DNA of 64,000 nucleotides. It comes from Photorhabdus laumondii subsp. laumondii. GTDB taxonomy: Bacteria; Pseudomonadota; Gammaproteobacteria; Enterobacterales; Enterobacteriaceae. Below are positions 9,135 through 58,807 of this stretch, piece after piece. The stretch is taken from contig NZ_CP024901.1 of NCBI RefSeq assembly GCF_003343245.1, positions 4,216,001 to 4,280,000 of the forward strand. The letters are read 5' to 3'. Numbering within the stretch: position 1 is the stretch's first letter; each line of letters opens with the position of its first letter. Position numbers and translations under genes: made by a program. Under the pieces are notes generated by a model that searched no databases, was not told the DNA's origin, and saw only the letters and a list, made by a program, of their open reading frames with translations.

Positions 9135-9167
9135 GGATTACCTCCTGTAAAAACCTGTCAATAGACA

Positions 9168-9196: not shown

Positions 9197-9235
9197 ATAG
9201 CCATTGAGTCAAGCAGTTTAAAAGGAGGGCTTACA

Positions 9236-9622: not shown

Positions 9623-9724
9623 AAAGAATTTGCTACAGGAAAGACGATTTTTATTTAGTGCAGCATTACCAGACGGCCATCCGGTAACGCTGCTAACCGT
9701 AGGCAACTAACAGGAGTAGTTACC

Positions 9725-9967: not shown

Positions 9968-10014
9968 CCGCTAAAGGGGAGATCCCAGCGCTTGGGCTGG
10001 GATCTGGGGTTAGC
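9963..10014. terminator. long hairpin between symE and the immunity gene, copy 1
   Basis: GATCCCAGC/GCTGGGATC (9981-9989 and 9996-10004) is nested inside an outer GCTAACC/GGTTAGC pair (9963-9969 and 10008-10014). The hairpin overlaps the ends of both convergent genes. It lacks a clear T-run, so it may be a bidirectional terminator or an RNA stabiliser. Confidence 0.5.
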
Positions 10015-10321
10015 AAAAATCTTGTTCTATTCTGCCTTCCGATTTCAATGTTTCTAAAAAACATTGATAAGCAACTGGATCTGCTTCTAACAGGTCATCT
10101 AATATATTTTTTTCAATGAGTGGCTTGTAAAATATGCCATTTTCAAAGAAAACAAAATCACCAGATAACGATGACTCTATAATTTCTACTTCCTCTGCGT
10201 TATAACTAAGCAGCCCGTCATAACCTTTAGCAAAACCGTAAAAGTATGTTTTTTCTCCGAACCAATATATGGCAAAAACTTCAATAATTTTTTCTGATTT
10301 GAACTTTTTTATTTTCATCAT
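10010..10321 (-). CDS. probable CdiI-type immunity protein, copy 1
   Basis: This small, acidic, AT-rich gene of 103 residues is rich in aromatic residues (AIYWFGEKTYFYGFAKGYDG). I do not recognise a named family. Its start overlaps the last four bases of the toxin fragment gene, the usual arrangement of cdiA-CT/cdiI pairs. Low G+C compared with the rest of the unit suggests the toxin-immunity cassette has a different origin from the integrase-primase part. The function is inferred from position. Confidence 0.65.
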   Translation of the reverse strand: MMKIKKFKSEKIIEVFAIYWFGEKTYFYGFAKGYDGLLSYNAEEVEIIESSLSGDFVFFENGIFYKPLIEKNILDDLLEADPVAYQCFLETLKSEGRIEQDFC

Positions 10322-11235: not shown

Positions 11236-11558
11236 ACACCGATTTTCCCAATGCCCTCAGCCAGTTACCACCCGTTTTTTCCAATGGGCGTTCACCGCCG
11301 GCCCCAAAACCCCCTGACGCGCTTTTCGCCTCCAAAGGCCGGTTTTTCCCGCCGTGCCATTGTCAGTGTAGCGCCTTTTTCGGCAACGGGCGAACGTCGC
11401 CCAACTCGCTTGGGCGGCGGATGCCCGTTCTGCGGGCGCGGGCGGCATAGAGCCCGCAAGCGGCGCCCCTGCGACGCTCGGGGGCACCGGGGTTTCGGGT
11501 TGCGCATGACCTTGCATGACCACGCGATTTTGTTCAGGGAAGCCCCCGGGGGCTGCAC

Positions 11559-13050: not shown

Positions 13051-13315
13051 GGCTGCACGGGGCGGCGATGGCGAGCACGGGAATGAGCAAGGAGCCTGCG
13101 ACTGCGAACCGGGCGCAGCCAGTGCAGCGGGGTTGGGGCGGGGGGAAGTCAATGAGCGGAGGCCGCAGGCCGACCTGCCTTTAGGGGGGTTGGCCCAACG
13201 GTTGCAGGGCAGCTAAAGAAGAACTCAGAGTTGCCGATGTCCGGCTCAGTCGGTTAGAGCATAAGGCGCAGCCTTGTGCGCCACTCCCCGCAATGCCGAC
13301 CCGCGGGGGCGCAAG

Positions 13316-13412
13316 ACATAATGCCAATTATACGCATTAAGCCGCTCATCAATGCTCAGGCGGTTGCCCGGGCTCACCGGCGCAGTGCGTATAATTCCCC
13401 CCGCATTATGTT
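13316..13412. repeat. inverted site-like motifs, copy 2
   Basis: The same pair as in copy 1 (ACATAATGC...TATACGC and its inverted partner with six central C), about 160 bp past the recombinase stop. Confidence 0.5.
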
Positions 13413-13570
13413 CAATAGGCGTTGGGCGGCCTGGACCGGCTTAACGGGGACGCTCGTGGTTGAGCCGCCTGACGACTATTTACCCCCGCGTGCGCCGGGG
13501 CTAACGGGCAGTCCGGCCACGGTCTGCCCCCACACCGAACCCGCCCAACTCAACGGGGGCGTACGGACGC

Positions 13571-14701
13571 TCAGCGGCTATCGGGGGTTGAGGTCGGCTC
13601 TGAACTGTCCGGCGGCGTGTCCGTGTCGGCGTTATCGTCGGCGTACAGGTCGGCCAGTAAACCCACCTCATCGGCGTCGCTGACTTTTTCATCGGCCATT
13701 TGCTCCGCCGGATGGGTGCTGGCGTGCACCGCCTGCAAGGCCCGGATAGAGACCTGCGTATACACCTGGGTGGATTCCACGCTGGCATGGCCTAACATGG
13801 CCTGTATCCAGCGCAGGTCCGCCCCGTTCTCCAGCATCTGCGTCGCCATCGCATGCCGGAACAGGTGGCAGGCACCTTTTTTCTCGATACCCACCGCGTT
13901 GATATAAGCTGTCACCAAATTGCTGATACCGTTAGCCTGTAAGCCGTCCAGCCCATCCATTGCGACGAATAATGCCTTGACGTCTGGATTGACGATAAGT
14001 TGTGGCCGCACCTGTTGCTGATAGCGCTGTAGCCAGCTTAAGGCCCGTTCACCGAGGGGCAACACCCGGTCTTTATTCCCCTTGCCCTGCCGGATGGTCA
14101 CCGTTTTGCGTTTTCCGTCAACGCTGTACACATCCAGCCGGGTTAATTCGCCCCGACGCATCCCGGTTGACCAGAGCAACTCCATCAACGCCCGGTCACG
14201 TACCCCCTGCAACGTCGTCAGGTCAGGCTGCGCCAGTATCTGTTCGGTTTCATCGATGGTCAGGATATAGCGCGGCAGGTGCTTTTCCAGTCTGGGGAGT
14301 TCAATGTCCGCCGCCGGGTTCGCCAGTATCAGATTCTGTTTCGTCAGCCATTTGAACCAGACCTTCAAGGGTTCCAGTTGGGTACGTTGCGTCCGGGTGC
14401 TTAACGGTTCACCGTTGGTCTTGCGGTACTGGTACAGATAACGCTGGTAACGCTCCAGTATCGGCCGCGTGATATCCGCTGCGTAGTATAAGCCGCGCTC
14501 GGTTGCCCACAGGATAAAGTGGTAAGTATGGTGCGTCTGTACTTTCAGCGTGCTTTCTGACCAATTCCGTTCCTGTCGCCACACCACAAAGCGCAGCAAC
14601 AACGCATACAGGCTCTTCGGGTCGTGCGCCGGACCGACAGGTTTGCGGTACACTTCATCTACTGTCAGCAGGCTTCCTCTGCGGGGTTTACGGTTTGCCA
14701 T
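13571..14701 (-). CDS. int: tyrosine recombinase/integrase, copy 2
   Basis: Same 376 residues as copy 1 with R182, H279, R282, H305 and Y314 present. It overlaps the primase gene by 14 bp. In an array it could act on any pair of unit borders and release monomer or dimer circles. Confidence 0.93.
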   Translation of the reverse strand: MANRKPRRGSLLTVDEVYRKPVGPAHDPKSLYALLLRFVVWRQERNWSESTLKVQTHHTYHFILWATERGLYYAADITRPILERYQRYLYQYRKTNGEPLSTRTQRTQLEPLKVWFKWLTKQNLILANPAADIELPRLEKHLPRYILTIDETEQILAQPDLTTLQGVRDRALMELLWSTGMRRGELTRLDVYSVDGKRKTVTIRQGKGNKDRVLPLGERALSWLQRYQQQVRPQLIVNPDVKALFVAMDGLDGLQANGISNLVTAYINAVGIEKKGACHLFRHAMATQMLENGADLRWIQAMLGHASVESTQVYTQVSIRALQAVHASTHPAEQMADEKVSDADEVGLLADLYADDNADTDTPPDSSEPTSTPDSR

Positions 14702-17700
14702 GATTGACCTCCGGTTGAGATTGAGGGGTGGGCGCAGACAAGGGGCGCGTTTTCTTTTTTCCTTTTATCACGGTGTCTTCCGTTACCCCGACTTGCGGTA
14801 CGCTGAACCCGTGCTCTGCCTGCTCGGATGGGGATTTTTTCACCCCAGACTTAGCCCGGACCTGACCCAGACTTGAGGCAGACTTGCGTTTATTTAAGTC
14901 AGACTTGCTCTCCTGACCTGTCGGGACGGCTTCCGGTGTTTTATCCCTGTCGGGCACGGGCAATGCGTCTCTGTGATTATTTTCCCTAATAACCGCGTTT
15001 TCATCTGCCCGGACTTGTGCCCCCGCCGGCCCTTGTGCTATCGGGGATGACGCGGGTTTTTCTTCCCCAGACTCAGGCCAGACTTGCCCCGGACTTGGGG
15101 AAGACTTGCGACCTTTCGGGTCAGACTTGCGTTCACTGCCGGCGGTTTCGGAGTCCGGTTCTCCGACATCCAGCAGGCCGCACAGGTGGGCTGCGCCGTT
15201 GTCTTCCCCGTCCCACAGCAGTTCATAATGCAGCAGGTGCCCCCGGCTGCCGCCATGCAACAGCAGGTATTCCATTTCCGTCAGCCGTTGACAGTGGTTT
15301 TTGAGCTGGCTGTCGCTCCAGTGGGTAAAGGCACGGATATCTCGCCGGGTAAAGCGGACTTCATTTGGCTGGCAGTGCTGGATTTGCGCCTGTTCGTTCA
15401 CCATCTCTTGTATCAGCAGTAACAGCTTGCGCGTCTGCGGCGGCATTTCATCCAGCGTGCGCCCCAGCACCTCATGCGCCAGCCGGTTGGCGAGGGCAAT
15501 ATCGTCTTGGGTGACTTCGATATATTCGATGACCTGCCCGCGGTGGGTCGTTTTCTTCACTTCACGTTGATACTGGTGCAGCAGGGCAATGGCCTGTATC
15601 AGCGTCAGGTATTTCATGTGGTCGCGCCGCATCCGGGTTTTGTCTGACAGGAACGTCAGTTGGTGGGCGTAAGGATTGACCACTTTCAGCGGCCTTAACA
15701 AGCGCTGGGCGTTCTGGTGTAACTGTGTCAGATAACCTTTCTCCGAGTCAGCCAGCAACCCGGCCAGCGTCTGGCGGTGCCGCTGCATGGCGTGGATGGC
15801 CTGCGTCTGCTCGCGCGATTCGTTGACCGTCAGCACCAGACAGCGGTTCAGCAGCTCTTCATCCACATCAATGGCCGTCGTCGTTAACATCAGCATCACC
15901 GGTCCCTGCACCTTGTATTCCCGCGTCACCAGTTCGCCGCTCTGTTCGTTTTTGCCGGTACTGGCGATTTTTAGCTCGCCGTCGGACTGTAACAGTTTCA
16001 GGGCATAGGCCGCCTGCCGCACGCCTTCCTCTTCGGCTATCGCCAGTATTTTGTGTTGCAGGCTGGTTTCGCCGAGGTAATACAGGCTCTGTCCGGTCAT
16101 CGCCGAGTACTGGATACGCTCCTCTTCCGGCATCAGGTTCAGCACGGCATCCATCAGGCTGCTCTTGCCTGCCGCGCTGCTGCTCTGGATTAACACGGCC
16201 AGCGGTTTATCGAGTTTGCGCGAGACTGCCGCCAGATACCCGGTCAGCAGATTGGTGGATTCGCCGACCACGCCACAGGCGGCCATGTCGTTGATAATCT
16301 GTTCTGTTAAGTTTGGCGATGTCAGCAACGCCAGCGCGGCGGCTTCGTCTTCCGCGCTGACCGTGACTGCCGTTGTCCCTGAGGCTTCGGCGTCGGCCTG
16401 CTGTTGCGCGTCCTGTTGCTGCTCCAGCATCAGCAAGACCCGCCCGGCTTCACGTTTAATCACAGACGGCTCGCATTCCAGCTCTTGCGCCGCCGTGCTG
16501 ATGTAGTTCTGACGATGCCGCGCATGGTACATGTCCAGCGTATCCACATGGAACAGGCCGGACGTTTCATCCCGCACCTGCACGTTCACCTTCATCACAT
16601 CCGGCACCGGGGATTTTTTCATCCCCCGTACCCGCCAGACCCGGGGGCCGCTTTTCATCAACAGTTCACCGCAGGCCGTGCGCTCACAGGGCACGGGGGC
16701 AACAGTCAGCGCCGACGGGGCGGCTAAAGCAGCCGGTTTAGCCACCCCGGCACTTTGGGGCTTTTCCGTCACTGTCGGCGAGACGGGCCGCTCATGGCTG
16801 AACACCGCGCCCGGCGCTGTTCCCTGTCCCAGCCAGACCGCCTGTTGCAACGCCAGCCCCAGCGCATGTTCGGCGTTGCCGCTTTTCAGCGCATAGTCAT
16901 TGGCATCCATGCCCGGCGGGAACTGCACCCGCCATGCCTCGATACCGGCTTCCAGTAAATCAGCGGCCACACTGGTCGCGCCACGGTCTCCGGCCTCGTC
17001 CCGGTCAAAGGCAATCAGCACCCGTTTCACGCCGTGATACTGTAAGGCTTCGAGGTGCTCACGGTTAAACCCGTTCACCCCGAACGCGGCAATCACGTTA
17101 CGGAACCCGGCACACCAGAACGTCATGGCATCGATCAGCGCTTCGCACAGGATAATTTCATTTGATGCCTGCATCGCCGATTCATTCCAGACCCCGGCTA
17201 GCGGTGACGGCAGATACAGATGCTTCGGGCTGTCTTTCAGCACTTTGTAATCCGGCTGGGTCCGGCGACCATACAGTTGCAACACCCGCCCGCGGCTGGT
17301 CACATTGACCGATTCTGTCCAGCCGATCACCGGCACCACGACGCAGCCCCGGAAGTGGTCCTGCCGGGTAGTGGTACGCAACACGCCCAGACCTGATAGT
17401 TTGTCGCGCAGTTGCTGGCCTTCCTGACTGCTCTTGGACGGTAATAAGCCCGCTGAACCGCCGATCCCGTGATGGCCCGCGTACCCCAGCTTAAAGTGAC
17501 TGACCAGTTCAGGATGATTCAGCCCGCGTCGTTCCAGCCAGGCTTTGGCTTCCGGTGACGCCAGTAAGTGCTGATGATAAAAATCAATCACCTGATGCAG
17601 CAGCGCCTGCCCGTCATCGTCCAGGTCGGCCAGTTTCGGACGCGGCAGGGGGGCCGCCTGTAATTCCGGCTGGGCGGCTAACGAAGAAGCGGCCACAACC

Positions 17701-18592: not shown

Positions 18593-18835
18593 ATGGCTAA
18601 CCGCGATTGTAATGCAGATTTAGCGATTTCAAAAGCCCGGCGCAGCTATAAGGTGGGGTATGCCCGCACCCGCCACGAAGACCGCAGCACCGGCATGACC
18701 CGCTATTACAGCCAGCACCCCAGTTTGCATCTTAAAGGCAACTGGCTGGAAGAAGCGGGCTTTGCCACCGGTCAGCCGGTGCAGGTCAGTGTTGAGCACG
18801 GACAGTTGATTATCCGGCTCGTCGAGAACGGCTAA
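18593..18835 (+). CDS. symE: SymE-family toxin, copy 2
   Basis: Same 80 residues as copy 1 with the LKGNWLEEAGF...GQPV signature and the same upstream inverted repeat. Confidence 0.85.
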   Translation: MANRDCNADLAISKARRSYKVGYARTRHEDRSTGMTRYYSQHPSLHLKGNWLEEAGFATGQPVQVSVEHGQLIIRLVENG

Positions 18836-27461: not shown

Positions 27462-27704
27462 ATGGCTAACCGCGATTGTAATGCAGATTTAGCGATTTCA
27501 AAAGCCCGGCGCAGCTATAAGGTGGGGTATGCCCGCACCCGCCACGAAGACCGCAGCACCGGCATGACCCGCTATTACAGCCAGCACCCCAGTTTGCATC
27601 TTAAAGGCAACTGGCTGGAAGAAGCGGGCTTTGCCACCGGTCAGCCGGTGCAGGTCAGTGTTGAGCACGGACAGTTGATTATCCGGCTCGTCGAGAACGG
27701 CTAA
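27462..27704 (+). CDS. symE: SymE-family toxin, copy 3
   Basis: Same 80-residue SymE-like protein as copies 1 and 2. Confidence 0.85.
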   Translation: MANRDCNADLAISKARRSYKVGYARTRHEDRSTGMTRYYSQHPSLHLKGNWLEEAGFATGQPVQVSVEHGQLIIRLVENG

Positions 27705-28058: not shown

Positions 28059-28948
28059 TTTTTATCCGTGATTGAAGGCTTAGGTTGGATTTCAGGCCGT
28101 TTAGGAGTTGTAATCTTCATATCATAAGCCTTACCAGTAGTTGAGTTATATTGATAATGGATGGTGATATTTGAACCGTCTGGTAACTCATGTGTAACTT
28201 GCATTTTCTGGAATCCTGCATCAGTAGGGAAACGAGGATCTTTATTCATTCCTCTAAGTGGATCACCTGAAGATGGGTTAGCTTTAACTTGGTTCCATAA
28301 AATCTGCTCATTCAGATCCCTTGGCGCTGCAACTTGTTGCCCCGGTTTCGCGGTAGATATCTTTTCAGCATTTTTGATAAGCTGTTGATGATAAATAGTA
28401 TTAGCCGATTTATCACCCAGATTCGTTGTGCCTTGACTGTTTTTCCCAATCTTTTCCAGCGCCGCTTTCTCTGTATTAACAACCGCGCCTGTGCTTCCTT
28501 TTGTTGTTGGCGATGATTTCGGCCCTTTGCTGCCCTCAACAATAACAGGCAACGTCATCGCCATCGCAGCGGCAGTCTCCTGACTCATGCCCATTGCTTC
28601 AAAGCGTTTTGTCCAGCCGAGTTCGCCTACCTTGCCGGTTGCCGCCTGACCTAACGTATTCACCGCCGACAGGTAATTTCTGAACTCAACTGGCAATGTG
28701 CCATCCCGGTCCATATTTTTGAGGGTCCGCTCAAACACCGGCCACTGATCAACCAGATAACCATACTTCTGTGCGCACTGGGTCGGGTTGCTGTTACAGA
28801 AATCCATCATTTCCTGCTGATTGCGGATATTAGTGTCTACCATATCCTTGATCACTTGTTTGCAGCTTTCGCCTTCACAGGTGCGGGCTTGATGCGCAAA
28901 ACTGTCCAGCTCATTCACGCTCAGATAGTTATTCTCAATCGCCATCAT
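28055..28948 (-). CDS. CdiA-CT toxin fragment, copy 3, out of frame with the adhesin
   Basis: The toxin cassette is the same from ENNYLSVNELD to the end, but the bases before it now come from the adhesin (ATGATGGCGATTGAGAAT). The adhesin frame reads GGC-GAT-TGA and stops two codons after INDG. The toxin frame is shifted relative to it and could start at ATG 28948 or 28945, without a good ribosome site. So the third cassette sits exactly where a toxin tip would be attached but is not fused in frame. A frameshift would be needed to make a chimeric adhesin-toxin. Confidence 0.7.
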   Translation of the reverse strand: MMAIENNYLSVNELDSFAHQARTCEGESCKQVIKDMVDTNIRNQQEMMDFCNSNPTQCAQKYGYLVDQWPVFERTLKNMDRDGTLPVEFRNYLSAVNTLGQAATGKVGELGWTKRFEAMGMSQETAAAMAMTLPVIVEGSKGPKSSPTTKGSTGAVVNTEKAALEKIGKNSQGTTNLGDKSANTIYHQQLIKNAEKISTAKPGQQVAAPRDLNEQILWNQVKANPSSGDPLRGMNKDPRFPTDAGFQKMQVTHELPDGSNITIHYQYNSTTGKAYDMKITTPKRPEIQPKPSITDKK

Positions 28949-31900
28949 TAATCGGCGAATATTTCCGGGCAGAGAACAGTAAATCCCGACCAGCGTTAAC
29001 CGAGACATTTCCTTTAGTCGATATTAATCTCGCGATACCCGCAATATCGCCCCCTGCACTGAGTTGCAGGTGATCACCCGCGGTAATTTGCGTACCTAAT
29101 TCAGAGAATTTGTCTAATCCATCTAATTCGGATAAATAAAACAGGCTCTCTGGCGTATTGGGCCGAGAGATATCAATATCGCGACCCGCACTGAGCATGA
29201 CTTGTTGTCCCGCCCGGATACCCGCTTGCCGCAACATTAAATCATTTCCCGCAAACAGATTAATATTGCCCGCCGCCTTCAATTGGCTTCGACTGGCATT
29301 CAGGTTACGACCCGCACTTAATGTCAGATTGTGTGATTTATCTAACTGAGTACCGGAAAGGTCCAGATCGTTGCCCGCGGAAATCCGCAAATGATTATCG
29401 GCCGAAATTGAGGCTAATAACTCATGAGGCCGATTCCGTCCCATTTGGATGTCGCCTTCACGCACCAGAAGCTCAACATTTTCCCCTTTTAACTCTGCCT
29501 GACGAGCGGTGATATCCTTGCCCGCAATTAAGGTCAGATTTTTATTTGCCGCTAATTTAACCCGGTCGGCATTAATTTCATGACCCGCATTTAACGTTAT
29601 ATTGTTGGCTTTATCGAACAAAAGACCCTGGAGATCCAGTTTGTTGCTCGCGAACATCTGCACATTATTGCTGGCCGAAATACGCGAATCATGCCCGCCC
29701 ATTTGAATGTTGCCTTCACGCGCGAGAAGCTCAATATTTTCCCCTTTCAGCCCGGTTTCACGGGCAGTGATACCTTTGCCCGCAATCAGTGTCAGATTTT
29801 TCTGCACGGCCAATTTAACCCGGCTGGTATCAATTTCATGACCCGCGTTTAACGTTATCGTGTTTGATTTATCGAACAAAAGACCATAGAGATCCAGTTT
29901 GTGATCCGCGAATATCCGCAAATTGTTGTCGGCCGAAATACGCGAACCGTCCCCCCACATCTGGATGTCGCCTTCACGCGTAAGCAGTTCAATATTTTCT
30001 CCCTTCAACCCGACTTGAAAAGCCTCAATATCTTTACCTGCAATCAAGGTCAGATTTCTTTTTGCCTCCAGTGTACTCTGGCCGGCATACATTCGACGCT
30101 CGGCGATGACGGACAGATCATTGCCCGCGTTGAGGTGCCCTATGTTAATAATTTCACCGGCATGCAGCAGAATATTTTTCGCCGAGATGAATGCCGTTCC
30201 GCGGAGTTGATGAATAAAATCAGCCACCACATTCAGATCGGCGGAGAGTTTACCGTCCATCCCGCGGTTAAAATCGTGACCGGTTAAGATGAGATTTTTC
30301 TTCGCATGAAACTGACTTTCATCATTATCCAGCTTCGTTGCATGGATATAAGCGTTCATTCCCGCCGCGACGCTGGCATCCCAGGCATTATTTAACGCTT
30401 TTGCGCGAATAATAATATCGCCGTTATGGGTTTTCAGTGTCGCTGAAGTGTTGTTAATTTCAGTGCTTAAATTACCGCTCGCGTCTTTTTGCAGCCAGAG
30501 ATGATTATTTGCCTGAATCAGCCCCTTATACTGATTGTATAAATGGTCGATAAATAACCGCATGTCACCTTCTGCGATAATCTTACCGGTGTTGTTCAGC
30601 GTGTTCGCGGCAAGCGTGATCTCTTTCCCTGCCTGCACATGACTCTGTTCCGCCGTTTTAATGCTTTTACTGCTAACGGTGATATCCGTTTTGGCCTGTA
30701 TATTGCCCAGAGTCACCTTACCATCCGCCGTCAGACTAATGTCGCCTTGCGTTGCCGTCAGGTTGGTCAGGTTAACTCCCTTACCCGCCTCAGTACTCAC
30801 CAGACGGATTTTATTGGCATACATTCCCCCCAATGACCCGGTATCAATCGCTTTCCAAGAGGTATCACCCTCGCCTGCAATAGGGATAAGAGTCCCGCGT
30901 TTGAAATCAATCCGGTTGGCCCCTTGTGTCAATGTCAGGTTTTTCGCCTGCACTTTGCCGTTAAGTATCGTCGCACGGCTGATAATGTCGACAGCATCCT
31001 GCGCCGTTGCGTCCAGCCCCTTTTCATCAAAGGTTATGACACCTTTTTTCATCTCTAAAGCCGCTAACGCGCCCTCTTTATCAAATACCGGTTTCCCGGT
31101 CGATAAGGTGACAGCCGGGGTATTGATAAAACCACAACCATGACAGGTTATGCCGTTCGGGTTAGCGATGAAGACCGGGGCTTTTTGCCCCACCACTTCC
31201 AACAGACCCTGTAGATTTGAGGCTAAAGTCCCCACCACTTCATTAATAATCAACTCAGCCGATTGACCGTTGAAGTGAGGGTTCGCCCCAATTTGTCCCG
31301 CCAGTACGGATTGGGTAGCTTCGGTAGCATTATTGAGCACCAGCCCGGAAGCCCCAACATTAAACTCCCGATAACGGTTATGTGAAACACCCCGGGAATT
31401 CGGTGCCGCAATATGGATAATAGGCAGGTTATTTCTCACAGCAATCCGCGCTCGCTTATCCGCCAGTTGAATCCCGGGTATTCCACCAGCTATTTCTGGG
31501 ATATTGATGGTCAGTTGGGGGGCATTATCTAATGCGAGGTCAATCAACGCCGAAGTCACCGGAGTATATCTCCCGTCGGCTAAGTGCAACGCGGTACTAT
31601 ATTGGGCGACTGCGGCCGTCCCTTCTGCCGATAATGCTGTCTCTGTTATATTGCTGTCGGCAATCAGCGCTAAATTGTTGCCAGCGGTGACCTTGCCAAT
31701 ATTAATCGAGCCACCACTGGTCAGGGTAATATCTTTCCCGGCGGTCAGGGAAATCCCATCCAACTTTATCCCCCCTCCAGCGTGAAGATCAATATTCTCA
31801 TCCGCCGCCAAATGCTGATTAATACCAATCCACCCATTACTCGCCATAAAGATATTTTTCGCCCGGTTAATTAGCGTATCTGAAAGCGATATTCCCTGTT

Positions 31901-34900
31901 CAGACAGAATACGCAGCGTATTAACCGCAGAAATAATAGGTAATACTTGTGTGCTTTCCGACGTGTCACTAGGTGAAACAGAAGTATTATAACTATTGGC
32001 AATCAAGGTAATGTCATGACCTGAAATATCCGTGCCACGCACCGTAAAACTGTTCTTTCCCTGTAGCAGAACCTGGTTCCCGGCGGTGATATTTCCCCCA
32101 TCTAAAGACAAGGTTTTCGCTTTAATAGTGACATCACCGTCGGCACGAATTCGTCCCCAACTCTGCAATGTATCGGTTGTCAATATCAGATGTTGACCGG
32201 CTTGCATATGACTTTTTTTCACCATGTCAATGTCTTTACCGTTAACGGTGATATCCGTTTTGGCCTGTACATCCCCCAGAGTCACCTTGCCATCCGCCGT
32301 CAGACTGATGTCGCCTTGGGTTGCCGTCAGGTTGGTCAGATTGACAACCTTACCCGGCTCGGTACTCACCAGACGGATTTTATTGGCATACATTCCCCCT
32401 AATAACCCGGTATCAATCGCTTCCCAAGGGCCATAATCTTCCCCTGTCATGGGAACAAGGGTTCCGCGTTTGAAATCAATCTGGTTGGGGCCTTGTGTCA
32501 ATGTCAGGCTTTTCGCCTGGAGTTTACCGTTAAGCTTAGTGGTCCGGCTGATGATAGCGATCGAATCTTGCGCTGTTGCATCCAGTCCCTTTTCACCCAA
32601 GGTGATAGCGCCTTTTTTCACTTCCAAGGCCGCTAATGCGCCATCTTTATCAAATACCGGTTTACCGGTCGATAAGGTGACAGCCGGAGTATTAACAAAG
32701 CGACAACCATTACAGGTCATACCGTTCGGGTTAACAATGAAGACATTAGCTTTCTGCCCTGCAACTTCCAACAGCCCTTGCAGATTTGAGGCTAAGGTAC
32801 CCACCACTTCATTAATAATCAGTTCAGCCGATTGACCGTTGAAGTGAGGGTTCGCCCCAATTTGTCCCGCCAGTACGGATTGGGTAGCTTCGGTAGCATT
32901 ATTGAGCACCAGCCCGGAAGCCCCAACATTAAACTCCTGATAACGGTTATGTGAAACACCACGGGCGTTAGGTGCCGCAATATGAATAATAGGGTGATTG
33001 TTTTTCGAGGTGATCCGAGTTTGCTTATCCGCCAGTTTAATCCCTGGGACTTCTCCTTCTACTTCTGAGGCGTTTATGGTCAGTTGAGGAGCATGGCTTA
33101 ACGCACATGCAATCAGCGCAGAAGTGACTGGCGTATATTTCCCTTCAACTGAGTTATACCTCCCTGACGGTGAATGTAACTCTGCGTTGTTTTTGACAAT
33201 GGCAGTCACCCCTTTTGCCGACAAAGTTGCCTCAGTATCAATAATGTCACCACCAGCATTAAGGGTTAAATTATTGCCGGCAGTGATGATACTGCTCGCT
33301 ATGGGTAATTGAAATTGTGGGTAAGATTGTTCGTCTTCCTCGTCATCAGCATTTTCATATTCATAATGCTTTTCATAACCCGTTCCGTGTTCATCTTCAT
33401 ATTCATAGGGGTCCTCTGCTGTGATTTTACTCACATCAAGCGTGCCGCCACTGGTCAGCGTGATATCTTTCCCCGCCGTCAAGGAAATGCTTCTCAGATC
33501 GACAATCTTTCCTGCATGGATCTCAATATTTTCATCCGCTTGCAATTGGCTGAGCTGGCGCAGACGCTGATTAATGAATGCTTGTTTAGCGCCGTCATTG
33601 AGTGAACTCTGCTCATCAATTAAATCACCAGAGGCATAAATCTCAAGCTTATCATTGGTTGCCAAAAAGATATTTTTCGCCCGGTTAATCAGAGTATCGG
33701 CGATATTAATAGGACCCTCGGCGATAATGCGTAATATGTTATCAGCAGAAAGCGTGGTTAATACCCTTATTCCCTCAGGGGTATAGTCATCTCCAGAGAC
33801 AACAGACAGCAGCCCCCGGCTGGCAAGCAAGGTCACATCCCGACCGGAGATATCATAACCATTCACATCAAGATGTGATTTTCCATCCAGCATGACATGG
33901 TTCCCGGCTTTTAAATTCCCCTGGCCTAAATAGATTGTTTCTGCGTCAACGGCTAAGTTTTGTTCTGCCCTCATTGACGCACGATTTGCTAAATCTCGGG
34001 CAGTGAGAGAAATGTTTTTCCCGGTGATTAACGCCAGATCCGTAGGTTTCTTTCCCGCTTTAAAATGTTCTTTATTAAAATCAAAACTAAATCCCTCTTT
34101 AAAGACAGCCGTCAAATCCCCACCGGCACTCAGTTTACCAATGATATTCTGCTGATTGTCTTTTATCGCTTTGGTTGAAAAATTTTTGCCTGTCAGGGTG
34201 AGATTTTGTCCCGCGCTTAACTCACCAACATTATTTATCTCGTTCGCGGTAATGCTGTTGTTTTTACCCGCGGTAATAATCGGGTGGCTTTGCTTAGTCG
34301 GGTTTACGTTATCAAGTTGAGTCGCTTTAATCGTGACATCACCATCCGCCCGGATTTGGCCTTGATTCCTCAGTGTTTCGGTGGTCAATTTCAGATGTTG
34401 ACCCGCCTGCACATGGCTTTGTGCCGCCGTTTCAATGGCTTTACTGTTGATGTTGATATCGGTCTTAGCTTGTACCTCCCCCAAGATAATTTTACCCTCA
34501 GCGGTTAAACTGATAGCGTCTTGGGTTGTGGTCAGGTTGGTGAGATTAACCCCAACCCCGTCTTCAGTGGCAACCAGTCGGATTTTATTGGCATACATGC
34601 CGCCTAAGGCTTTAGTATCAACCGCTAATTGCGGTTTTGCCCCTTCTCCGGCGATAGGTTTAACCGTGCCGTCTTTCAAGCTGACACGGTTGGCCCCCTG
34701 AGTCAGCGACAGAGTGTTAGCCTGAATTTTTCCATTCAACTCCGCCGCCCGGCTGATGATATCGACATAATCCGTCGTCTTGCCGTCCAGCCCTTTGCCG
34801 CCAATGGTAATCTGGCCTTTTTTCACTTCCAGTGCTTCCAACGCACCCTGTTTATCAAATTGGGGTTTACCGGTGGTCAGGGTTGCGCTGGCGGTATTAA

Positions 34901-35342
34901 TAAAACCACAACCATCGCAGGTAATGCCGTTAGGGTTGGCAATCATCACGTTGGCTTTATTGCCAACAATTTCCAACTGGCCTTGCAGGTCAGAGCGGCC
35001 ACTGCCGGTGACTTCGTTAATAATCAGTTCCGCTGCTTTGCCTTTCAGGTTAGGGTTCGCGTTAAGTTGCCCTGCCAGTTGTGATTGAGCCGCCTGTGTC
35101 GCGTTATTAAGTACGGCCCCCTGAGTGGCAACATTGAACTCTTGATAGGTGTTGTGGGATATCCCTGCATCATTCGGCGTGGCGATATTCACCACCGGTA
35201 CATTGCCCTGATTTTGTACCTGTGTGCGGTTGTTATCCGGTGTTATGCCGATAGCCATAGCCGGGTGCAATGGCTGGATTGCCGTCAGGTAAATTAAAAG
35301 ATAACTTGTGACCCTAGCCATCGAGTTGTGGCGTTTATCCAT
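28935..35342 (-). CDS. FhaB/CdiA-type two-partner-secretion adhesin, N-terminal part
   Basis: This frame has 2135 residues and is truncated at its 3' end by the array. A signal sequence (about residues 1-31, LLIYLTAIQPLHPAMA) is followed by a TPS haemagglutination domain (about 32-300) with the NPNL and NPNG motifs and a CxxC pair (NPNGITCDGCGF). Unusually, two more TPS-like domains follow at about 780-1080 and 1304-1600 (NPNGMTCNGC and NPNGITCHGC). Between and after them are beta-helix repeats (AGNNLTL, AGKDITLTSGG, SADNNLRIFA). An Asp/Glu-rich insertion lies near residues 660-680. The typical extended signal peptide region is absent. No TpsB/CdiB transporter gene is in the window. Secretion would need a partner encoded elsewhere, and the product now stops before the pretoxin region. 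Confidence 0.88.
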   Translation of the reverse strand: MDKRHNSMARVTSYLLIYLTAIQPLHPAMAIGITPDNNRTQVQNQGNVPVVNIATPNDAGISHNTYQEFNVATQGAVLNNATQAAQSQLAGQLNANPNLKGKAAELIINEVTGSGRSDLQGQLEIVGNKANVMIANPNGITCDGCGFINTASATLTTGKPQFDKQGALEALEVKKGQITIGGKGLDGKTTDYVDIISRAAELNGKIQANTLSLTQGANRVSLKDGTVKPIAGEGAKPQLAVDTKALGGMYANKIRLVATEDGVGVNLTNLTTTQDAISLTAEGKIILGEVQAKTDININSKAIETAAQSHVQAGQHLKLTTETLRNQGQIRADGDVTIKATQLDNVNPTKQSHPIITAGKNNSITANEINNVGELSAGQNLTLTGKNFSTKAIKDNQQNIIGKLSAGGDLTAVFKEGFSFDFNKEHFKAGKKPTDLALITGKNISLTARDLANRASMRAEQNLAVDAETIYLGQGNLKAGNHVMLDGKSHLDVNGYDISGRDVTLLASRGLLSVVSGDDYTPEGIRVLTTLSADNILRIIAEGPINIADTLINRAKNIFLATNDKLEIYASGDLIDEQSSLNDGAKQAFINQRLRQLSQLQADENIEIHAGKIVDLRSISLTAGKDITLTSGGTLDVSKITAEDPYEYEDEHGTGYEKHYEYENADDEEDEQSYPQFQLPIASSIITAGNNLTLNAGGDIIDTEATLSAKGVTAIVKNNAELHSPSGRYNSVEGKYTPVTSALIACALSHAPQLTINASEVEGEVPGIKLADKQTRITSKNNHPIIHIAAPNARGVSHNRYQEFNVGASGLVLNNATEATQSVLAGQIGANPHFNGQSAELIINEVVGTLASNLQGLLEVAGQKANVFIVNPNGMTCNGCRFVNTPAVTLSTGKPVFDKDGALAALEVKKGAITLGEKGLDATAQDSIAIISRTTKLNGKLQAKSLTLTQGPNQIDFKRGTLVPMTGEDYGPWEAIDTGLLGGMYANKIRLVSTEPGKVVNLTNLTATQGDISLTADGKVTLGDVQAKTDITVNGKDIDMVKKSHMQAGQHLILTTDTLQSWGRIRADGDVTIKAKTLSLDGGNITAGNQVLLQGKNSFTVRGTDISGHDITLIANSYNTSVSPSDTSESTQVLPIISAVNTLRILSEQGISLSDTLINRAKNIFMASNGWIGINQHLAADENIDLHAGGGIKLDGISLTAGKDITLTSGGSINIGKVTAGNNLALIADSNITETALSAEGTAAVAQYSTALHLADGRYTPVTSALIDLALDNAPQLTINIPEIAGGIPGIQLADKRARIAVRNNLPIIHIAAPNSRGVSHNRYREFNVGASGLVLNNATEATQSVLAGQIGANPHFNGQSAELIINEVVGTLASNLQGLLEVVGQKAPVFIANPNGITCHGCGFINTPAVTLSTGKPVFDKEGALAALEMKKGVITFDEKGLDATAQDAVDIISRATILNGKVQAKNLTLTQGANRIDFKRGTLIPIAGEGDTSWKAIDTGSLGGMYANKIRLVSTEAGKGVNLTNLTATQGDISLTADGKVTLGNIQAKTDITVSSKSIKTAEQSHVQAGKEITLAANTLNNTGKIIAEGDMRLFIDHLYNQYKGLIQANNHLWLQKDASGNLSTEINNTSATLKTHNGDIIIRAKALNNAWDASVAAGMNAYIHATKLDNDESQFHAKKNLILTGHDFNRGMDGKLSADLNVVADFIHQLRGTAFISAKNILLHAGEIINIGHLNAGNDLSVIAERRMYAGQSTLEAKRNLTLIAGKDIEAFQVGLKGENIELLTREGDIQMWGDGSRISADNNLRIFADHKLDLYGLLFDKSNTITLNAGHEIDTSRVKLAVQKNLTLIAGKGITARETGLKGENIELLAREGNIQMGGHDSRISASNNVQMFASNKLDLQGLLFDKANNITLNAGHEINADRVKLAANKNLTLIAGKDITARQAELKGENVELLVREGDIQMGRNRPHELLASISADNHLRISAGNDLDLSGTQLDKSHNLTLSAGRNLNASRSQLKAAGNINLFAGNDLMLRQAGIRAGQQVMLSAGRDIDISRPNTPESLFYLSELDGLDKFSELGTQITAGDHLQLSAGGDIAGIARLISTKGNVSVNAGRDLLFSARKYSPINDGD
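30640..31440 (-). repeat. third TPS-like domain, internal duplicate
   Basis: The segment encoding PIIHIAAPNSRGVSHNRY to SHVQAGK is closely similar at DNA level to 32195-33005, with long stretches of near identity (for example around the GASGLVLNNATEATQSVLAG coding region). It looks like a recent in-gene duplication that keeps the reading frame. Borders are approximate. Confidence 0.7.
32195..33005 (-). repeat. second TPS-like domain, internal duplicate
   Basis: Partner of the repeat at 30640-31440, encoding PIIHIAAPNARGVSHNRY to SHMQAGQ. The first TPS domain (about 34440-35250) is more divergent, so the duplication of domains 2 and 3 is younger. Borders are approximate. Confidence 0.7.
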
Positions 35343-50967: not shown

Positions 50968-51870
50968 ATGAAACGCCCTGACTACCGAACACTACAAGCC
51001 CTGGATGCAGTGATCCGAGAACGCGGCTTCGAGCGCGCTGCCCAGAAACTCTGTATCACTCAATCCGCAGTTTCTCAACGTATCAAACAGTTGGAAAATC
51101 TGTTCGGTCAGCCTCTATTGGTACGCACCGTTCCTCCACGCCCTACCGAACAAGGACAAAAACTACTGGCACTATTGCATCAGGTAGAGTTGTTGGAAGA
51201 ACAATGGCTAGGCAATGAACAGGGGACCGATACTCCATTGCTGCTTTCATTAGCCGTCAACGCTGACAGCTTAGCAACCTGGCTGTTACCAGCTCTACAT
51301 CCGGTACTCGCTGATTTACCTATCCGACTCAATATTCAAGTTGAAGATGAAACTCGGACTCAAGAACAGCTAAGAAGAGGTGAAGTCGTTGGCGCAGTCA
51401 GTATTCAACCACAGCCTTTACCCAGTTGTCTGATTGATAAACTAGGCGCACTGGATTATCTGTTTGTCGCCTCACCAGAATTTGCGACCCGCCATTTCCC
51501 AAATGGGGTTACCCGTTCGGCGTTACTAAAAGCCCCAGCAGTTGCATTCGACCATCTGGATGATATGCATCAGGCATTTTTACAACAGAACTTCGAATTA
51601 TCACCGGGTAGCGTTCCATGTCATATCGTCAACTCATCTGAAGCCTTTGTACAACTGGCAAAACAGGGTTCCACTTGTTGTATGATCCCACATTTGCAGA
51701 TTGATCAAGAATTGAAAAATGGTGAACTGATCGACCTGACACCGGGTTTATGTCAGCGCCGGATGCTCTACTGGCATCGTTTTGCACCGGAAAGCAGGAC
51801 TATGAAAAAAGTGACTGACGCCCTGTTGAAACTTGGGCGTCAGATGTTAAGACAAGATGATATTAATTAA
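50968..51870 (+). CDS. argP: LysR-type regulator ArgP (IciA)
   Basis: 300 residues from [10 protein letters not shown], the start conserved in E. coli; the frame opens six codons earlier at 50950 but GGAG at 50951 serves the internal ATG. The helix-turn-helix is [22 protein letters not shown]. The co-inducer domain follows. It activates argO (here at 52703) in response to arginine and canavanine and is inhibited by lysine. Confidence 0.96.
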
Positions 51871-52589
51871 GGTTTGAGCTCAAAAACCACATCAACCTGA
51901 TCGCTGAAGTTGATGCTATCCTGCTGGTAAGTTTCACCCACTCCAGCAGCAGCACCTCCCGACATCATCACATCAGTATTGCGATACTTCATGTGATCAA
52001 TCACCTCTGGTGCTCGGTAATTGATACTGTATATCGAGCCAACTTTGCTATTAAAGCCTTTCGCCAAGGCACCAGCTTGTTCAATTGCATTCTCAATCGC
52101 TTTCTGGCGGGCTTCATCACGATATTTTTGCGGATTGTCCACACCAAACTGAACAGATACGATTTCATTCAAACCCGCTTTTAATGCACCATCTAGCAGA
52201 TCATTAAGTTGATCTAACTTACGAACCTTCACCTCCACTGAACGGATCGCACGATAGCCTTTCAGCACCGATTTGCCCGATACATTATCGTACTCATAAT
52301 CAGGCTGAGTACGCAAATTCGCGGCATCAATATCTTTCTTTTCAATACCGTGATTTTTCAGAAAATCAAAATACTTAGCAACCAGTTCATCAACCTGCTT
52401 TTTAGCCCCAGAAGCATCTTTAGCCGCAATATTGACGTTAATCAGCAATGTTGCTATATCCGGTTCTGCTTTCACTACCGCATTACCAGAAGTAATAACA
52501 TGAGGGACTCCGGGTAAATCAGCAGCCTGTGCAGCAAGTGGCACCCCGGCACTTAACATGGCGGCCAACCCCAATGATTTTAATTTCAC
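51867..52589 (-). CDS. yggE: periplasmic SIMPL-domain protein
   Basis: 240 residues with a GTG start five bases after GGAGG. A signal peptide ([22 protein letters not shown]) ends in an AQA cleavage site. The SIMPL/DUF541 domain follows. YggE homologues are linked to oxidative stress tolerance. The gene is convergent with argP and the two overlap by four bases at their stop codons. Confidence 0.92.
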
Positions 52590-53326: not shown

Positions 53327-53906
53327 AAAAAAACTCCTCAATAATTATTCACTTTGCTATTTCAATGTTCAGAATATTAAGAAGAATAGCTCATTAGAGG
53401 AAATAAATGTTTCTAATCGATCATAAGAAATTTTAATAACCAACCAAAAATCAGATTCTTACAGGAAAATCATTTAATTAATTCAAAAAAATCAAGCTAA
53501 TACCCATTCAAAACATTAATAAACCCTTAATTCTGTAAAAATTAAGAAAAATAAATTATCGATTGAATTATATTAGCAATCATTATTACTAGCGCACTCA
53601 CTATCATAAATAACTATTTTTTCCGAAGCAATGCTGAAAAGATACTAAACCAATCTAAAACAATTTAATATCATATTAATACAGCAATCAAATATTACCA
53701 ATATCGAATCTTGCCATAAACCTCTTAATGATAACCACATAAAAAAATAACCTGTTACGATAGATTGCAAACACTTAACCGTTTACTTTATAAAATGAGA
53801 CAATGATAAAAAAACCATAAAAAAACCATGGATTATTGGAATTTATTCACAACATTAACTACTCTTTAATTACTGACTATCAAGCCAATAGAAAATGGGG
53901 TTGCAT
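53327..53906. other. AT-rich region upstream of the RiPP-like locus
   Basis: About 580 bp, very AT-rich and free of convincing genes. It should contain the argO promoter with its ArgP site at the left end and the promoter of the peptide gene at the right end. The composition differs from the adjacent housekeeping genes and suggests an acquired insert. Confidence 0.5.
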
Positions 53907-54056
53907 ATGAACGTATCTACAAAAAATCATGATGCTAAATTATCCCCTCCGGGGGAGAATAGTAAAAATAAAGATAATAGAGAGATTAATGATAACAGAG
54001 ATAAATCAGAATACGAAAATTATCCTGAGCTTTCTCAATGGACCTTTAGATTCTAA
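53907..54056 (+). CDS. candidate RiPP precursor peptide
   Basis: 49 residues, ATG six bases after GGGG. The first 35 residues are hydrophilic and rich in Asn, Lys, Asp and Glu, as in a leader. The tail ENYPELSQWTFRF is aromatic and ends at Phe. The gene is 187 bp upstream of a radical SAM/SPASM peptide maturase on the same strand. There is no Gly-Gly site. The last residues W45-T-F47-R-F49 alternate aromatic and polar residues and would suit side-chain crosslinking. I infer that it is the substrate of the maturase. The core is not proven, and no close family is recognised from memory. Confidence 0.7.
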   Translation: MNVSTKNHDAKLSPPGENSKNKDNREINDNRDKSEYENYPELSQWTFRF

Positions 54057-54243
54057 ACACTAACAATTTAACTTAAACAACGGCATTGGTAGTCAGTACC
54101 TATACCTAAAATTAATCCCATTAACGCTATTTTATTTATCATTTTACATTCTCAATACTGATGTACTGTATATGCGTATTAATAACTTTACACAGTTTGA
54201 ATAAAAACCATCTACAAAAATAACACTTAAAAGAGAGGTTAAG

Positions 54244-55542
54244 ATGAACGAAAAAATAGAAGTAAGAAATATAGATGTAAATAGCGATATGAGTACTAAT
54301 TACACTAAAAAAAGACCTAAAATCCCTCAGGAACTATACGCATATGAAGATATAAAGAAAATTCCAATCCAAGATATCCTTTCTGATGAGGAAATAGAAA
54401 TTTATGAAAATGAAATGCAGAAAAAAATAAAAGCAAAACCGTTGGGATCTAACAAACTTGTTGTTGTTACCAAAGCGACCAGATTATGCAATCTAAGATG
54501 TTCCTACTGCCATTCATGGGCTGAAGGGAAAAATAATACCATGAGTTTTAGCAGTTTAGTTGCTATGACGAAAAGGATCCTCGATATTCCTGATTTAATT
54601 AGAATTGAATTTGTATGGCATGGCGGTGAAGTTACAAGATTAAGACCTGAATTTTTCATAAAATTCATTTGGTTACAACAACATATTAAGAGAGATAACC
54701 AATTCGTTACCAATGCGATACAAACAAATGCTGTGAATATCAGTGAAAAATGGATAGCATTGATAAAAAGATTGAATATTAGTGTTGGAATAAGTCTTGA
54801 TGGTCACCCCGAAATTAATGATAGCAGAAGAGTTGATCTAAAAGGCGTTGGCACTTCGAAAAGAATAGAAAAAACAATACAAACATTTAGAAATAACAAT
54901 ATTAAATATGGAGGGCTAGTTGTCGTTGATCGGCTTATTCTTGAAGCAAATAAAAGAGAACTATTAAGCTATTTTGCAAGAATAAACCTCAATGATCTTG
55001 TTTTTCTAGATATCGTTCCAGATAACAGGTTGCTTCCAGGAGAGTCTCCAGGTGACAGTTATGTCAATTACTTCGAATACATGGACTTTCTCTCGGAACT
55101 ATTTCTAATTTGGTGGAAGGAATATAAAGACACAATTAACATTCCTTTATTTAACTCATTTGTTGGTGTTTTGAAAGGTGCTAGTAATGTTCTGATGTCA
55201 TGTTATTGGTCAGAAAAATGCCATCAAGAAGTTGTTACAATTGAGCCAAATGCAACCGTATCTGCATGTGATAAATACGTCGGAAGCGAAAATTTTTACT
55301 ATGGTTCATTGCTAGATAATGACTTAAAAACATTATTAGAGAATTCTATACATTATGAAAAATCAGAAAAAGAAGAAATCACTAATAATAACAACATGAA
55401 AAATTGCCAGTGGTTTCATTTATGTCACGGTGGATGCCCACAAACGAGAATAAGTAACAGGAAACATAATAAAATGTACTCAGATATATTAGCATGTTGC
55501 GGAACTGACAAGCTACTTAATACAATTTCTGGAGTTTTATGA
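54244..55542 (+). CDS. radical SAM/SPASM peptide maturase
   Basis: 432 residues. The radical SAM cluster is C82-x3-C86-x2-C89 (CNLRCSYC). The fold continues through IEFVWHGGE and GISLDGHPEINDSRR. The C-terminal SPASM region has C342 (SACDKY), C388, C394, C398 (CQWFHLCHGGC) and a CC pair near residues 419-420, enough for two auxiliary 4Fe-4S clusters. An N-terminal extension of about 70 residues precedes the barrel. Such enzymes form thioether, C-C or C-O crosslinks in RiPPs; the sequence KATRLCNLRCSYCHSWAEG is close in style to cyclophane-forming maturases. AGAGG precedes the ATG and the stop overlaps the next gene by four bases. Confidence 0.9.
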   Translation: MNEKIEVRNIDVNSDMSTNYTKKRPKIPQELYAYEDIKKIPIQDILSDEEIEIYENEMQKKIKAKPLGSNKLVVVTKATRLCNLRCSYCHSWAEGKNNTMSFSSLVAMTKRILDIPDLIRIEFVWHGGEVTRLRPEFFIKFIWLQQHIKRDNQFVTNAIQTNAVNISEKWIALIKRLNISVGISLDGHPEINDSRRVDLKGVGTSKRIEKTIQTFRNNNIKYGGLVVVDRLILEANKRELLSYFARINLNDLVFLDIVPDNRLLPGESPGDSYVNYFEYMDFLSELFLIWWKEYKDTINIPLFNSFVGVLKGASNVLMSCYWSEKCHQEVVTIEPNATVSACDKYVGSENFYYGSLLDNDLKTLLENSIHYEKSEKEEITNNNNMKNCQWFHLCHGGCPQTRISNRKHNKMYSDILACCGTDKLLNTISGVL

Positions 55543-56069
55543 TGGAAAATAACAATAAAAACACTAACTTTAATAAAACTGAAATGAATAAATTCACTTT
55601 TGTAGAATCAAAATTGAGCAATGAAGAAGTCGTTGATATACATGATATAATGGTGAACTCAGGAGAATTAAGACCTATTGAATACCTTAAGTTATGCCAG
55701 AATGAGATTAAAGAATCAAAGAGAATAGTTATACTATGTAGTCATAATACAGAGTTTGTCGGTATGGCACATATTCTCTTAATATCTGAACGCACATCAT
55801 TTAATGATCAGGGAATTATTGAACTCCATGACCTTTGGGTTAATCCAAAGTGGAGGAGAAATGGCATAGTACTTCCTCTCTCTCGCAAAGTAGAAGAAAT
55901 TTGTTATCAACGACTTAACGTAAAAAATGTTGGCTTGGCGATACAACTCTATAAAAACAATGAATATATTTTGCGATTTTATATGAAAATTGGGTATAAA
56001 CCCATTGATTTGCAAATAGATGGTTCTAATACAGTATTATGGATGACAAAAGAAATAGAACCTTTTTAA
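55539..56069 (+). CDS. GNAT-family acetyltransferase of the RiPP-like locus
   Basis: 176 residues, starting in the ATGA overlap with the maturase gene, so the two are coupled. The acetyl-CoA region is LHDLWVNPKWRRNGIVLPLSRKVEE (R-x-x-G-I/V-type loop), and the C-terminal YKNNEYILRFYMKIGYKPI holds the usual Asn and Tyr. It could acetylate the mature peptide, give self-resistance by acetylating it, or modify another target. No transporter or peptidase is encoded in the cluster. Confidence 0.85.
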   Translation: MMENNNKNTNFNKTEMNKFTFVESKLSNEEVVDIHDIMVNSGELRPIEYLKLCQNEIKESKRIVILCSHNTEFVGMAHILLISERTSFNDQGIIELHDLWVNPKWRRNGIVLPLSRKVEEICYQRLNVKNVGLAIQLYKNNEYILRFYMKIGYKPIDLQIDGSNTVLWMTKEIEPF

Positions 56070-56094
56070 ACGACTGGTATTGAACTATCAATAT

Positions 56095-56160
56095 CAGAGT
56101 CTATCCCTAATAGGCGTAATTATTGCAAACAATGGCAAATAAAACAGCCTAATGGGATAG
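56095..56160. terminator. possible hairpin at the end of the RiPP-like operon
   Basis: CTATCCCTAATAGGC (about 56100) and GCCTAATGGGATAG (about 56147) can form an imperfect stem with a 30-base loop after the acetyltransferase gene. No clear T-run, so assignment is weak. Confidence 0.35.
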
Positions 56161-56205
56161 GTTATTAGTCTCTCTATTTAACTCAACAATATCATCATAC
56201 CGAGA

Positions 56206-56332
56206 TATACCCGTTATCTTTCAAGTTGCCTCTTTGTTGGCTGCGCTCACTCACCCCGGTCACATAGTTACCTATGCTCCCGGGGATTCGCTCCCTTGCC
56301 GTCGCGATCCATCTTGAAATCCATAGGGTATA
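56206..56332. repeat. ERIC element
   Basis: Full 127-bp copy, TATACCCGTTATC to CCATAGGGTATA, between the RiPP-like locus and mscS. Confidence 0.88.
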
Positions 56333-56498
56333 AAACAACCAGATGGTTGTTAAAAATAAGGGATTATTTCGCAGTAACTCAATCCGGTCTGAACGATCAC
56401 AAAATCAATAAATCACCAACCGGACTGAATTCTGCCAATAATAACGCCAACATCGATACCTTAATATATGCGAAGAGGATCGTGATGATAATCAAACT

Positions 56499-57509: not shown

Positions 57510-57881
57510 TCACCAATCGTACTTTTGCAAAATAAAATCCCGATAATCGGCCAACATATCAATAAAATCCTTGGTACCGCAAAAAGCCAGGCTCTCCTTA
57601 TCGTAATAACTCATGCCCTCCTCCATCGAATCAGTTTCAAACTCAAGCTGATTGGCACGAACCATAACTTCTTCGTCATCCATTAACAGCGTATATTCAT
57701 GACCTACAAGTTGCCATTGACGTTCACTACCTTTAATTTCGGCCAACGCTGAGGCAATCTTATCTATCACCGCCAAATCACCTTTAACTTCTTCATTCAG
57801 CCACTGACCAATAGCTTCGTGATCCATCGAGAACCGGCTAGTCACCAGTCCAGTGACATCCAGCAAAAATTCGTATTCCAT
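57510..57881 (-). CDS. yacL: YacL family protein
   Basis: 123 residues from the second ATG ([11 protein letters not shown]), six bases after AGAGG, matching the E. coli start MDYEF. The family blocks [31 protein letters not shown] and [13 protein letters not shown] are conserved. Uncharacterised acidic protein normally next to acnB. Confidence 0.93.
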
Positions 57882-57883
57882 CA

Positions 57884-58162
57884 TTACCTCTGGTGCGTTC
57901 TTTCCATTTTAATATTTCCTGGCAATTCCGCCTCAAAATCAGCCCACAAACTGCCAAGAAGTGGGAGATTAAAGCCTCTATGCTGACACAACGGCATGGT
58001 TTTCACCGGGATAACCGAAATATACACCCCCAAGTTATTCTTGAGGTTTGTGTCCGCGATGGCTTTCATCGGAGGAGAGTCCAGCCTCAGTGCAAATATA
58101 GGCAAATACACTATAATTAATAATATCTCAGAGAAACAAAAACAGCAAAATCGAATACACAT
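57884..58162 (-). CDS. possible small gene upstream of yacL
   Basis: An open frame of up to 92 codons ends at the yacL start. The C-terminal 60 residues ([38 protein letters not shown]) look protein-like, but no ribosome site is visible and the opposite strand is also partly open. I do not recognise it. It may be spurious. Confidence 0.25.
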
Positions 58163-58552: not shown

Positions 58553-58701
58553 TTTTCATTTATGGTAAATAACCATCTGCTAATCAATGTTCAACATAAT
58601 GAATATTGTCGGCACGTCTAAGAATAATTAGGTACGCCGATTATTGGTAGAAATAAAATTACGCATCTTTTCATGGGGAATTTAAATATTTAATCAATAA
58701 T

Positions 58702-58807
58702 TATACCTTATGGATTTCAAGATGCATCGCGACGAGCATAGGTAACTATGTGACCGGGGTGAGCGAGTGCAGCCAACAAAGAGGCAACTTGGAGGATAAC
58801 GGTATAT
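58702..58807. repeat. short ERIC derivative, inverted
   Basis: TATACCTTATGGATTTCAAG to AGGATAACGGTATA, opposite orientation to the other four copies. About 22 bp around GGCAAGGGAGCGAATCCCCGG are missing, so the arm pairing is altered. It lies downstream of the Dabb gene. Confidence 0.8.

Follow-up and report, generated by a model that had tools for sequence, protein, structure and literature searches.

The three genes that lie between argO and mscS in the chromosome of Photorhabdus laumondii subsp. laumondii almost certainly form a cluster IV daropeptide biosynthetic gene cluster, orthologous to the type described from P. asymbiotica (Guo et al. 2022; PMC9055067). In the window, by which we mean the entire 64,000-nucleotide stretch of DNA analysed, all three are read on the plus strand: a DarA-type precursor gene of 49 codons whose product carries the core WTFRF at residues 45-49 (53907..54056), a gene for a 432-residue DarE-type radical SAM/SPASM maturase (54244..55542), and a gene for a 176-residue GNAT-family N-acetyltransferase (gnat, 55539..56069), which matches PF00583 with 38.6 bits (cut-off 20.7). 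The identification is based on a maturase that passes the DarE cut-off and is 96% and 95% identical to those of two relatives, on identical precursor residues 32-49, on a matching mass and on the same gene content. The original prediction had read the locus as a RiPP precursor, a radical SAM/SPASM maturase and an acetyltransferase, and this reading was correct. It had also stated that the combination belongs to no described class, which is contradicted by the publication of the cluster IV type in PMC9055067.

Guo et al. sorted DarE enzymes into four clusters, the fourth of which is found in Photorhabdus and is characterized by a WT(F/Y)RF core (PMC9055067). According to the legend of Fig. 7 of that article, in whose main text the word "acetyltransferase" appears once, cluster IV is devoid of DarBCD but has a gene for a putative N-acetyltransferase. 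The same marks are found in the window: a core of the WT(F/Y)RF form, a putative N-acetyltransferase and no DarBCD-sized frame beside the precursor and maturase genes in the list of open reading frames between argO and mscS. This list contains no further frame of transporter or protease size either, as had been predicted. Conversely, the two marks of the bicyclic darobactins, a WNWx(K/R)xF core and DarBCD, are both missing from this interval, the core being WTFRF. The P. asymbiotica cluster has in common with the window the WTFRF core (W45, F47), the DarE-type maturase, the putative N-acetyltransferase and the lack of DarBCD; it differs in belonging to another genome, that of the window being 5.69 Mb and having been compared with 11 other Photorhabdus genomes. 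In a text search of the literature, "WTFRF" or "monocyclic daropeptide" was found in PMC9055067 alone.

Residues 1-431 of the maturase match the NCBIfam model DarE (NF038005) with 707.3 bits, against a cut-off of 650, which makes the protein a member of the DarE family. Thus, the profile search that had been proposed as a check places it in a peptide-modifying family. The runner-up NCBIfam model is DarW (418.1 bits), the XyeB model gives 76.7 bits for a cut-off of 450, the Pfam match is Radical_SAM, and the best PDB sequence match is an anaerobic sulfatase-maturating enzyme (5.5e-32). As expected of a daropeptide maturase, the enzyme has both the CxxxCxxC motif (C82/C86/C89) and the cysteines of the SPASM region (C320, C326, C342, C388, C394, C398, C418 and C419), all of them invariant in 13 aligned DarE-type sequences; of ten additional loci where the hits were partial or secondary, some but not all are represented in this set. 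In this alignment, the two orthologues, from P. asymbiotica DSM 15149 (96% identity) and P. australis DSM 17609 (95%), stand apart from the ten other DarE-type proteins, which are only 46-49% identical to the window's enzyme. That distance, together with a gene content unlike that of canonical darABCDE, could be taken to mean that the locus represents a new RiPP class. We regard this as next to impossible and rejected it, since the maturase is over the DarE cut-off and the gene content, the core and the crosslink of cluster IV are already published (PMC9055067). The window's 707.3 bits are the lowest score among the full-length DarE hits over the cut-off in a search of 295 genomes of the family. 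In plasmids, tblastn with the maturase returned 242 records, all below 60% identity, the best being a Vibrio crassostreae record annotated darE (52.5%).

The 49-residue gene ahead of the maturase, the starting point of the original prediction, holds up. The small frame is present at all three loci that carry this maturase, with relatives' copies 88 and 90% identical to that of the window, and is therefore not a chance frame. As listed, the open reading frame begins at an upstream in-frame ATG (53895) and encodes 53 amino acids, four more than we assign. The start at 53907 is preferred because its ATG is conserved in both relatives, where the upstream start is a TTG, and because it yields the W45/F47 numbering of PMC9055067. 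From residue 32 to residue 49, the precursors of the window, P. asymbiotica DSM 15149 and P. australis DSM 17609 do not differ; the six residues of 49 that differ between the window and DSM 15149 all lie before residue 32. The P. asymbiotica sequence used in this comparison is that of the DSM 15149 genome. A W-x-W/F/Y core near the C-terminus is present in all three carriers, in each case as WTFRF at residues 45-49.

The chemistry has been reported for the P. asymbiotica pair, DarApa/DarEpa. Modification adds 14 Da to the precursor, W45 and F47 are linked through an ether according to MS/MS, and E. coli lysate releases the ether-bearing pentapeptide WTFRF (m/z 770.3595; PMC9055067). Ring formation required the precursor and the maturase alone in co-expression (PMC9055067). 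Which atoms take part in the bond was assumed there from the example of darobactin, and the amount of material was too small for NMR; for the P. khanii enzyme, water was shown to be the source of the oxygen, and a dehydro-Trp product was also shown (PMC9055067). For WTFRF plus O minus 2H (+13.979), we compute an [M+H]+ of 770.3620, the same as the calculated value in PMC9055067. For the ether-bearing tryptic fragment 32-49, we compute 1177.0240, about 8 ppm from the 1177.0334 calculated in PMC9055067, where the fragment was observed at 1177.0314; this discrepancy counts against the match. The ether crosslink of the window's product is thus predicted from the published pair and the computed mass, and from the sequence likeness we infer that the same chemistry would take place in the window's organism: the DarE-type radical SAM enzyme would oxidise the beta carbon of F47 with oxygen from water, this oxygen would be joined to the indole ring of W45 to give a single ether-bridged ring, and unspecified cellular peptidases would free the pentapeptide WTFRF. 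The crosslink expected in the original prediction, a loss of 2H per bond, does not agree with the P. asymbiotica result, an ether formed by addition of O and loss of 2H.

A carbon-carbon bridge of the triceptide kind would be expected if W45 were the counterpart of the third core residue, W3, of darobactin rather than of the first. In the MAFFT alignment, W45 does fall under the second Trp of DarA; WTFRF differs at one residue from WTKRF, with which the darobactin B core WNWTKRF ends, and P. asymbiotica has both precursors (L052 and L001). However, the sequence PELSQ before W45 resembles, by eye, PEITA before the first Trp of DarA, an alignment other than that chosen by MAFFT, and the reported shift is +14 Da, not -2 Da, located by MS/MS between W45 and F47 (PMC9055067). 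We therefore consider a W45-F47 carbon-carbon bridge very improbable, and for P. asymbiotica it is rejected on the published +14 Da.

Two further known systems resemble the locus in part. The darobactin clusters (darABCDE, clusters I-III) resemble it in their DarE-type maturase and in an ether ring from the Trp in position 1 to the aromatic residue in position 3, and differ in the bicyclic WNWx(K/R)xF-type core, a second, carbon-carbon ring and the DarBCD transporter. The XyeB-type cyclophane (triceptide) maturases are likewise radical SAM/SPASM enzymes that bridge nearby side chains, but the bridge in their products is carbon-carbon, unlike the ether. Triceptides are described in the introduction of PMC9055067.

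The three genes are AT-rich, as had been noted (GC 0.31 for the precursor gene, 0.32 for darE and 0.31 for gnat, vs 0.48 for the entire window and mostly about 0.42-0.45 for nearby genes). In the window, 187 bp (54057-54243) separate the precursor gene from darE, and the start of gnat overlaps the stop of darE in an ATGA (55539-55542), the overlap of the original description. A promoter scan gave 7 sites vs 17.2 expected from shuffled sequences, and there are 2 terminator-like sites vs 1.4 expected. The precursor gene and darE of P. asymbiotica are separated by some 250 bp of repeat sequence, so that the two need not share a transcript there. Copies of a short repeat of about 127 bp occur in that same P. 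asymbiotica interval; in the window, this repeat, which resembles ERIC elements, is found at 56200-56335 and, inverted, at 58701-58802, and in the genome 40 matches, scored out of 632 candidates, are 96-100% identical.

NCBIfam models identify the products of the flanking genes as ArgO (349.9 bits, cut-off 298) and MscS (403.8 bits, cut-off 321), and beyond argO lies a gene encoding ArgP. Both argO and mscS were found in all 12 Photorhabdus genomes of the genus set, in which the window's own genome (G000) is included. Their spacer measures 724-749 bp in eight genomes and 2971-3244 bp in the three carriers of the locus, which in every case sits at this site; the difference in length indicates that the locus was inserted between argO and mscS, as proposed in the original prediction. 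From blastn of the 11 other genomes' sites against the window and from the spacer lengths, the variable segment, to which no strand is assigned, extends approximately from 53699 to 56498. In the twelfth genome (G303), the spacer of 2089 bp holds a frame for a DDE_3 transposase (L064 2003-3067) in place of the daropeptide unit, and thus the spacer has accepted inserts more than once. By argO, the nearest relatives of the window are G295 and G299 (99%), and both have an empty site; in G295, 344 bp of non-matching sequence stand where the window has the variable segment.

The locus is also less diverged at synonymous positions than its surroundings. Against P. asymbiotica, dS is 0.21 for darE, 0.27 for gnat and 0.28 for the short precursor gene, vs 0.63 for lysR/argP, 0.65 for the gene at 51867-52589, 0.73 for argO, 0.63 for mscS and 0.49 for the gene at 57510-57884. 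This last neighbour has the lowest value of the five, and the P. australis contig ends there, which leaves four neighbours for that comparison: 0.52-0.76, vs 0.21 for darE, 0.24 for gnat and 0.11 for the precursor gene. Between P. asymbiotica and P. australis, locus genes and these four neighbours alike give 0.17-0.22. Since dS in the locus is roughly two- to threefold below that of the neighbours, the unit has probably moved horizontally, and the pattern suggests a transfer, with the site unchanged, between the lineage of the window and that of P. asymbiotica and P. australis. The comparison involves one locus and five neighbouring genes, and AT-richness could by itself lower dS in the locus. 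Both this slower synonymous change in AT-rich genes and an old locus repeatedly lost would explain the pattern less well than horizontal movement does, as they fit a two- to threefold difference more poorly.

Within the genus set, a DarE of the window's type (95-100% identity) is present in three of the 12 genomes: the window's own, P. asymbiotica DSM 15149 (G296) and P. australis DSM 17609 (G297). A second type, 49-51% identical, occurs in six (G300, G301, G138, G303, G296 and G297), where it belongs to canonical darobactin loci situated elsewhere in the chromosome. Two of the three carriers, G296 and G297, thus hold a canonical darobactin cluster as well, and a genome search found no second DarE in the window's genome. 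In the remaining five (G295, G298, G299, G233 and G302), no DarE-type match was detected at E <= 1e-60. The six canonical loci encode a DarA with WNWSKSF, followed by frames in darBCD order and then darE. Profile searches bear on DarBCD in full at one of these loci, L054, where DarB (940.0 bits, cut-off 700) and DarC (502.4, cut-off 450) pass and DarD misses its cut-off of 375 by 0.2 bits (374.8); the DarB model is also passed in L050 and L053, and the other three loci were recognized by gene order and size. The canonical cluster of P. asymbiotica (L052 9329-10045) has two precursor genes, with the cores WNWSKSF and WNWTKRF, in addition to the WTFRF locus; WNWTKRF is the core listed for darobactin B (PMC8694152). 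At the family level, 11 of 295 genomes have a DarE-type match at E <= 1e-60, ten of them over the cut-off, including that of the window, and one (G022) partial.

The acetyltransferase follows the window-type maturase closely. It is present in the same three of the 12 genus genomes and in none of the other nine, including those that have a canonical cluster only; among 15 further genomes that gave a DarE-type hit, six of which belong to the 12, it was found in two, G296 and G297; among 394 genomes of the order, the window's own is the single one with a match at E <= 1e-6; and plasmids gave no relative at E <= 1e-3. Among the genomes searched, the GNAT is found only with this locus. The protein has no close named family, its best NCBIfam match reaching 20.9 bits for a cut-off of 93.1; a PDB sequence search gave one chance-level match (E 0.75), and an AlphaFold2 model built from three sequences is poor (mean pLDDT 39.9). 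The reading frames of darE, gnat and the precursor gene are all open. Against P. asymbiotica, dN/dS is about 0.085 for darE, 0.26 for gnat and 0.18 for the precursor gene (0.52 against P. australis, from few sites); the value of 0.26 suggests that gnat is still under purifying selection.

The ATGA overlap, the co-occurrence in the same three of 12 genomes and the precedent of OatA speak for an enzyme that would act on the peptide. In odilorhabdin-producing Xenorhabdus and Photorhabdus, the producer is protected by the GNAT OatA (PMC8749412). The likeness to the window's GNAT, drawn from its description, lies in the linkage to a peptide antibiotic cluster in these genera; a difference is that OatA acetylates side-chain amines of odilorhabdins (PMC8749412). 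In our proposal, the co-translated GNAT would acetylate the freed N-terminal amine, either to protect the cell, in lieu of the DarBCD exporter that the cluster lacks, or to complete the product, a role to which we give somewhat less than an even chance. We are equally tentative about the fuller form of the proposal, in which the GNAT would N-acetylate the Trp at the start of the ether-bridged pentapeptide and the three genes would constitute a version of the darobactin system that lacks an exporter, suffices by itself and moves horizontally. Linkage and co-occurrence are observed; a self-resistance acetyltransferase is the putative role. The computed [M+H]+ of the acetylated ether product is 812.3726, a shift of +42.011 Da.

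Alternatively, the GNAT may act on another substrate, or be a passenger gene of the island outside the pathway, a possibility that we rate only slightly lower. Indeed, the protein is a GNAT without a known substrate, the published ring was obtained with precursor and maturase alone (PMC9055067), and gnat diverges faster than darE (dN to P. asymbiotica 0.070 vs 0.018). Both versions of this alternative are opposed by the ATGA overlap with darE, by the presence of the GNAT in the three carriers and its absence from the nine remaining genus genomes, by its confinement, among the 15 other genomes with a DarE hit, to two that are both carriers, and by the dN/dS of 0.26. A literature search, outside of which lies the daropeptide review of Ma et al. 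2024 (cited in PMC11531245), found no report of peptide acetylation, of a role for the GNAT or of bioactivity for cluster IV.

Elsewhere in the window, an exact tandem repeat with a unit of 8868 bp extends over 2356-23891, as two complete copies and part of a third; 12668 bases are identical at an offset of 8868 (2356-15023). The unit encodes a transposase, a tyrosine integrase and a 1104-residue frame of the primase/toprim type, in whose place the third copy has three shorter frames, one with primase/toprim domains. Stacking of a mobile element, or an effect of assembly, could account for this repeat. Three matches to the Rfam sRNA isrA, equal in score and on the minus strand (9796-9918, 18664-18786 and 27533-27655), lie at intervals of 8868 and 8869 bases, in keeping with the period of the repeat. 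Further along, a TPS (two-partner secretion) domain is present in the 2135-residue product of 28938-35342 (minus strand).

The antibiotic lead darobactin, whose target in Gram-negative bacteria is BamA, which it blocks, is a daropeptide, and cluster IV is a natural version with one ring and no exporter. The class of the cluster was already known; modestly new are its distribution, its fixed site, its probable transfer, the co-occurrence of the GNAT and the coexistence with canonical clusters. The probable horizontal transfer, the same site in all three carriers and the presence of full darobactin clusters alongside in two of them suggest that the cluster IV unit has a separate job under selection. 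The remaining interest lies in the acetyltransferase and in the mobility of the unit. If our proposal is correct, a role in tailoring or disarming a daropeptide would be demonstrated for an acetyltransferase for the first time, and the unit would complement canonical darobactin in some Photorhabdus strains and stand alone in others.
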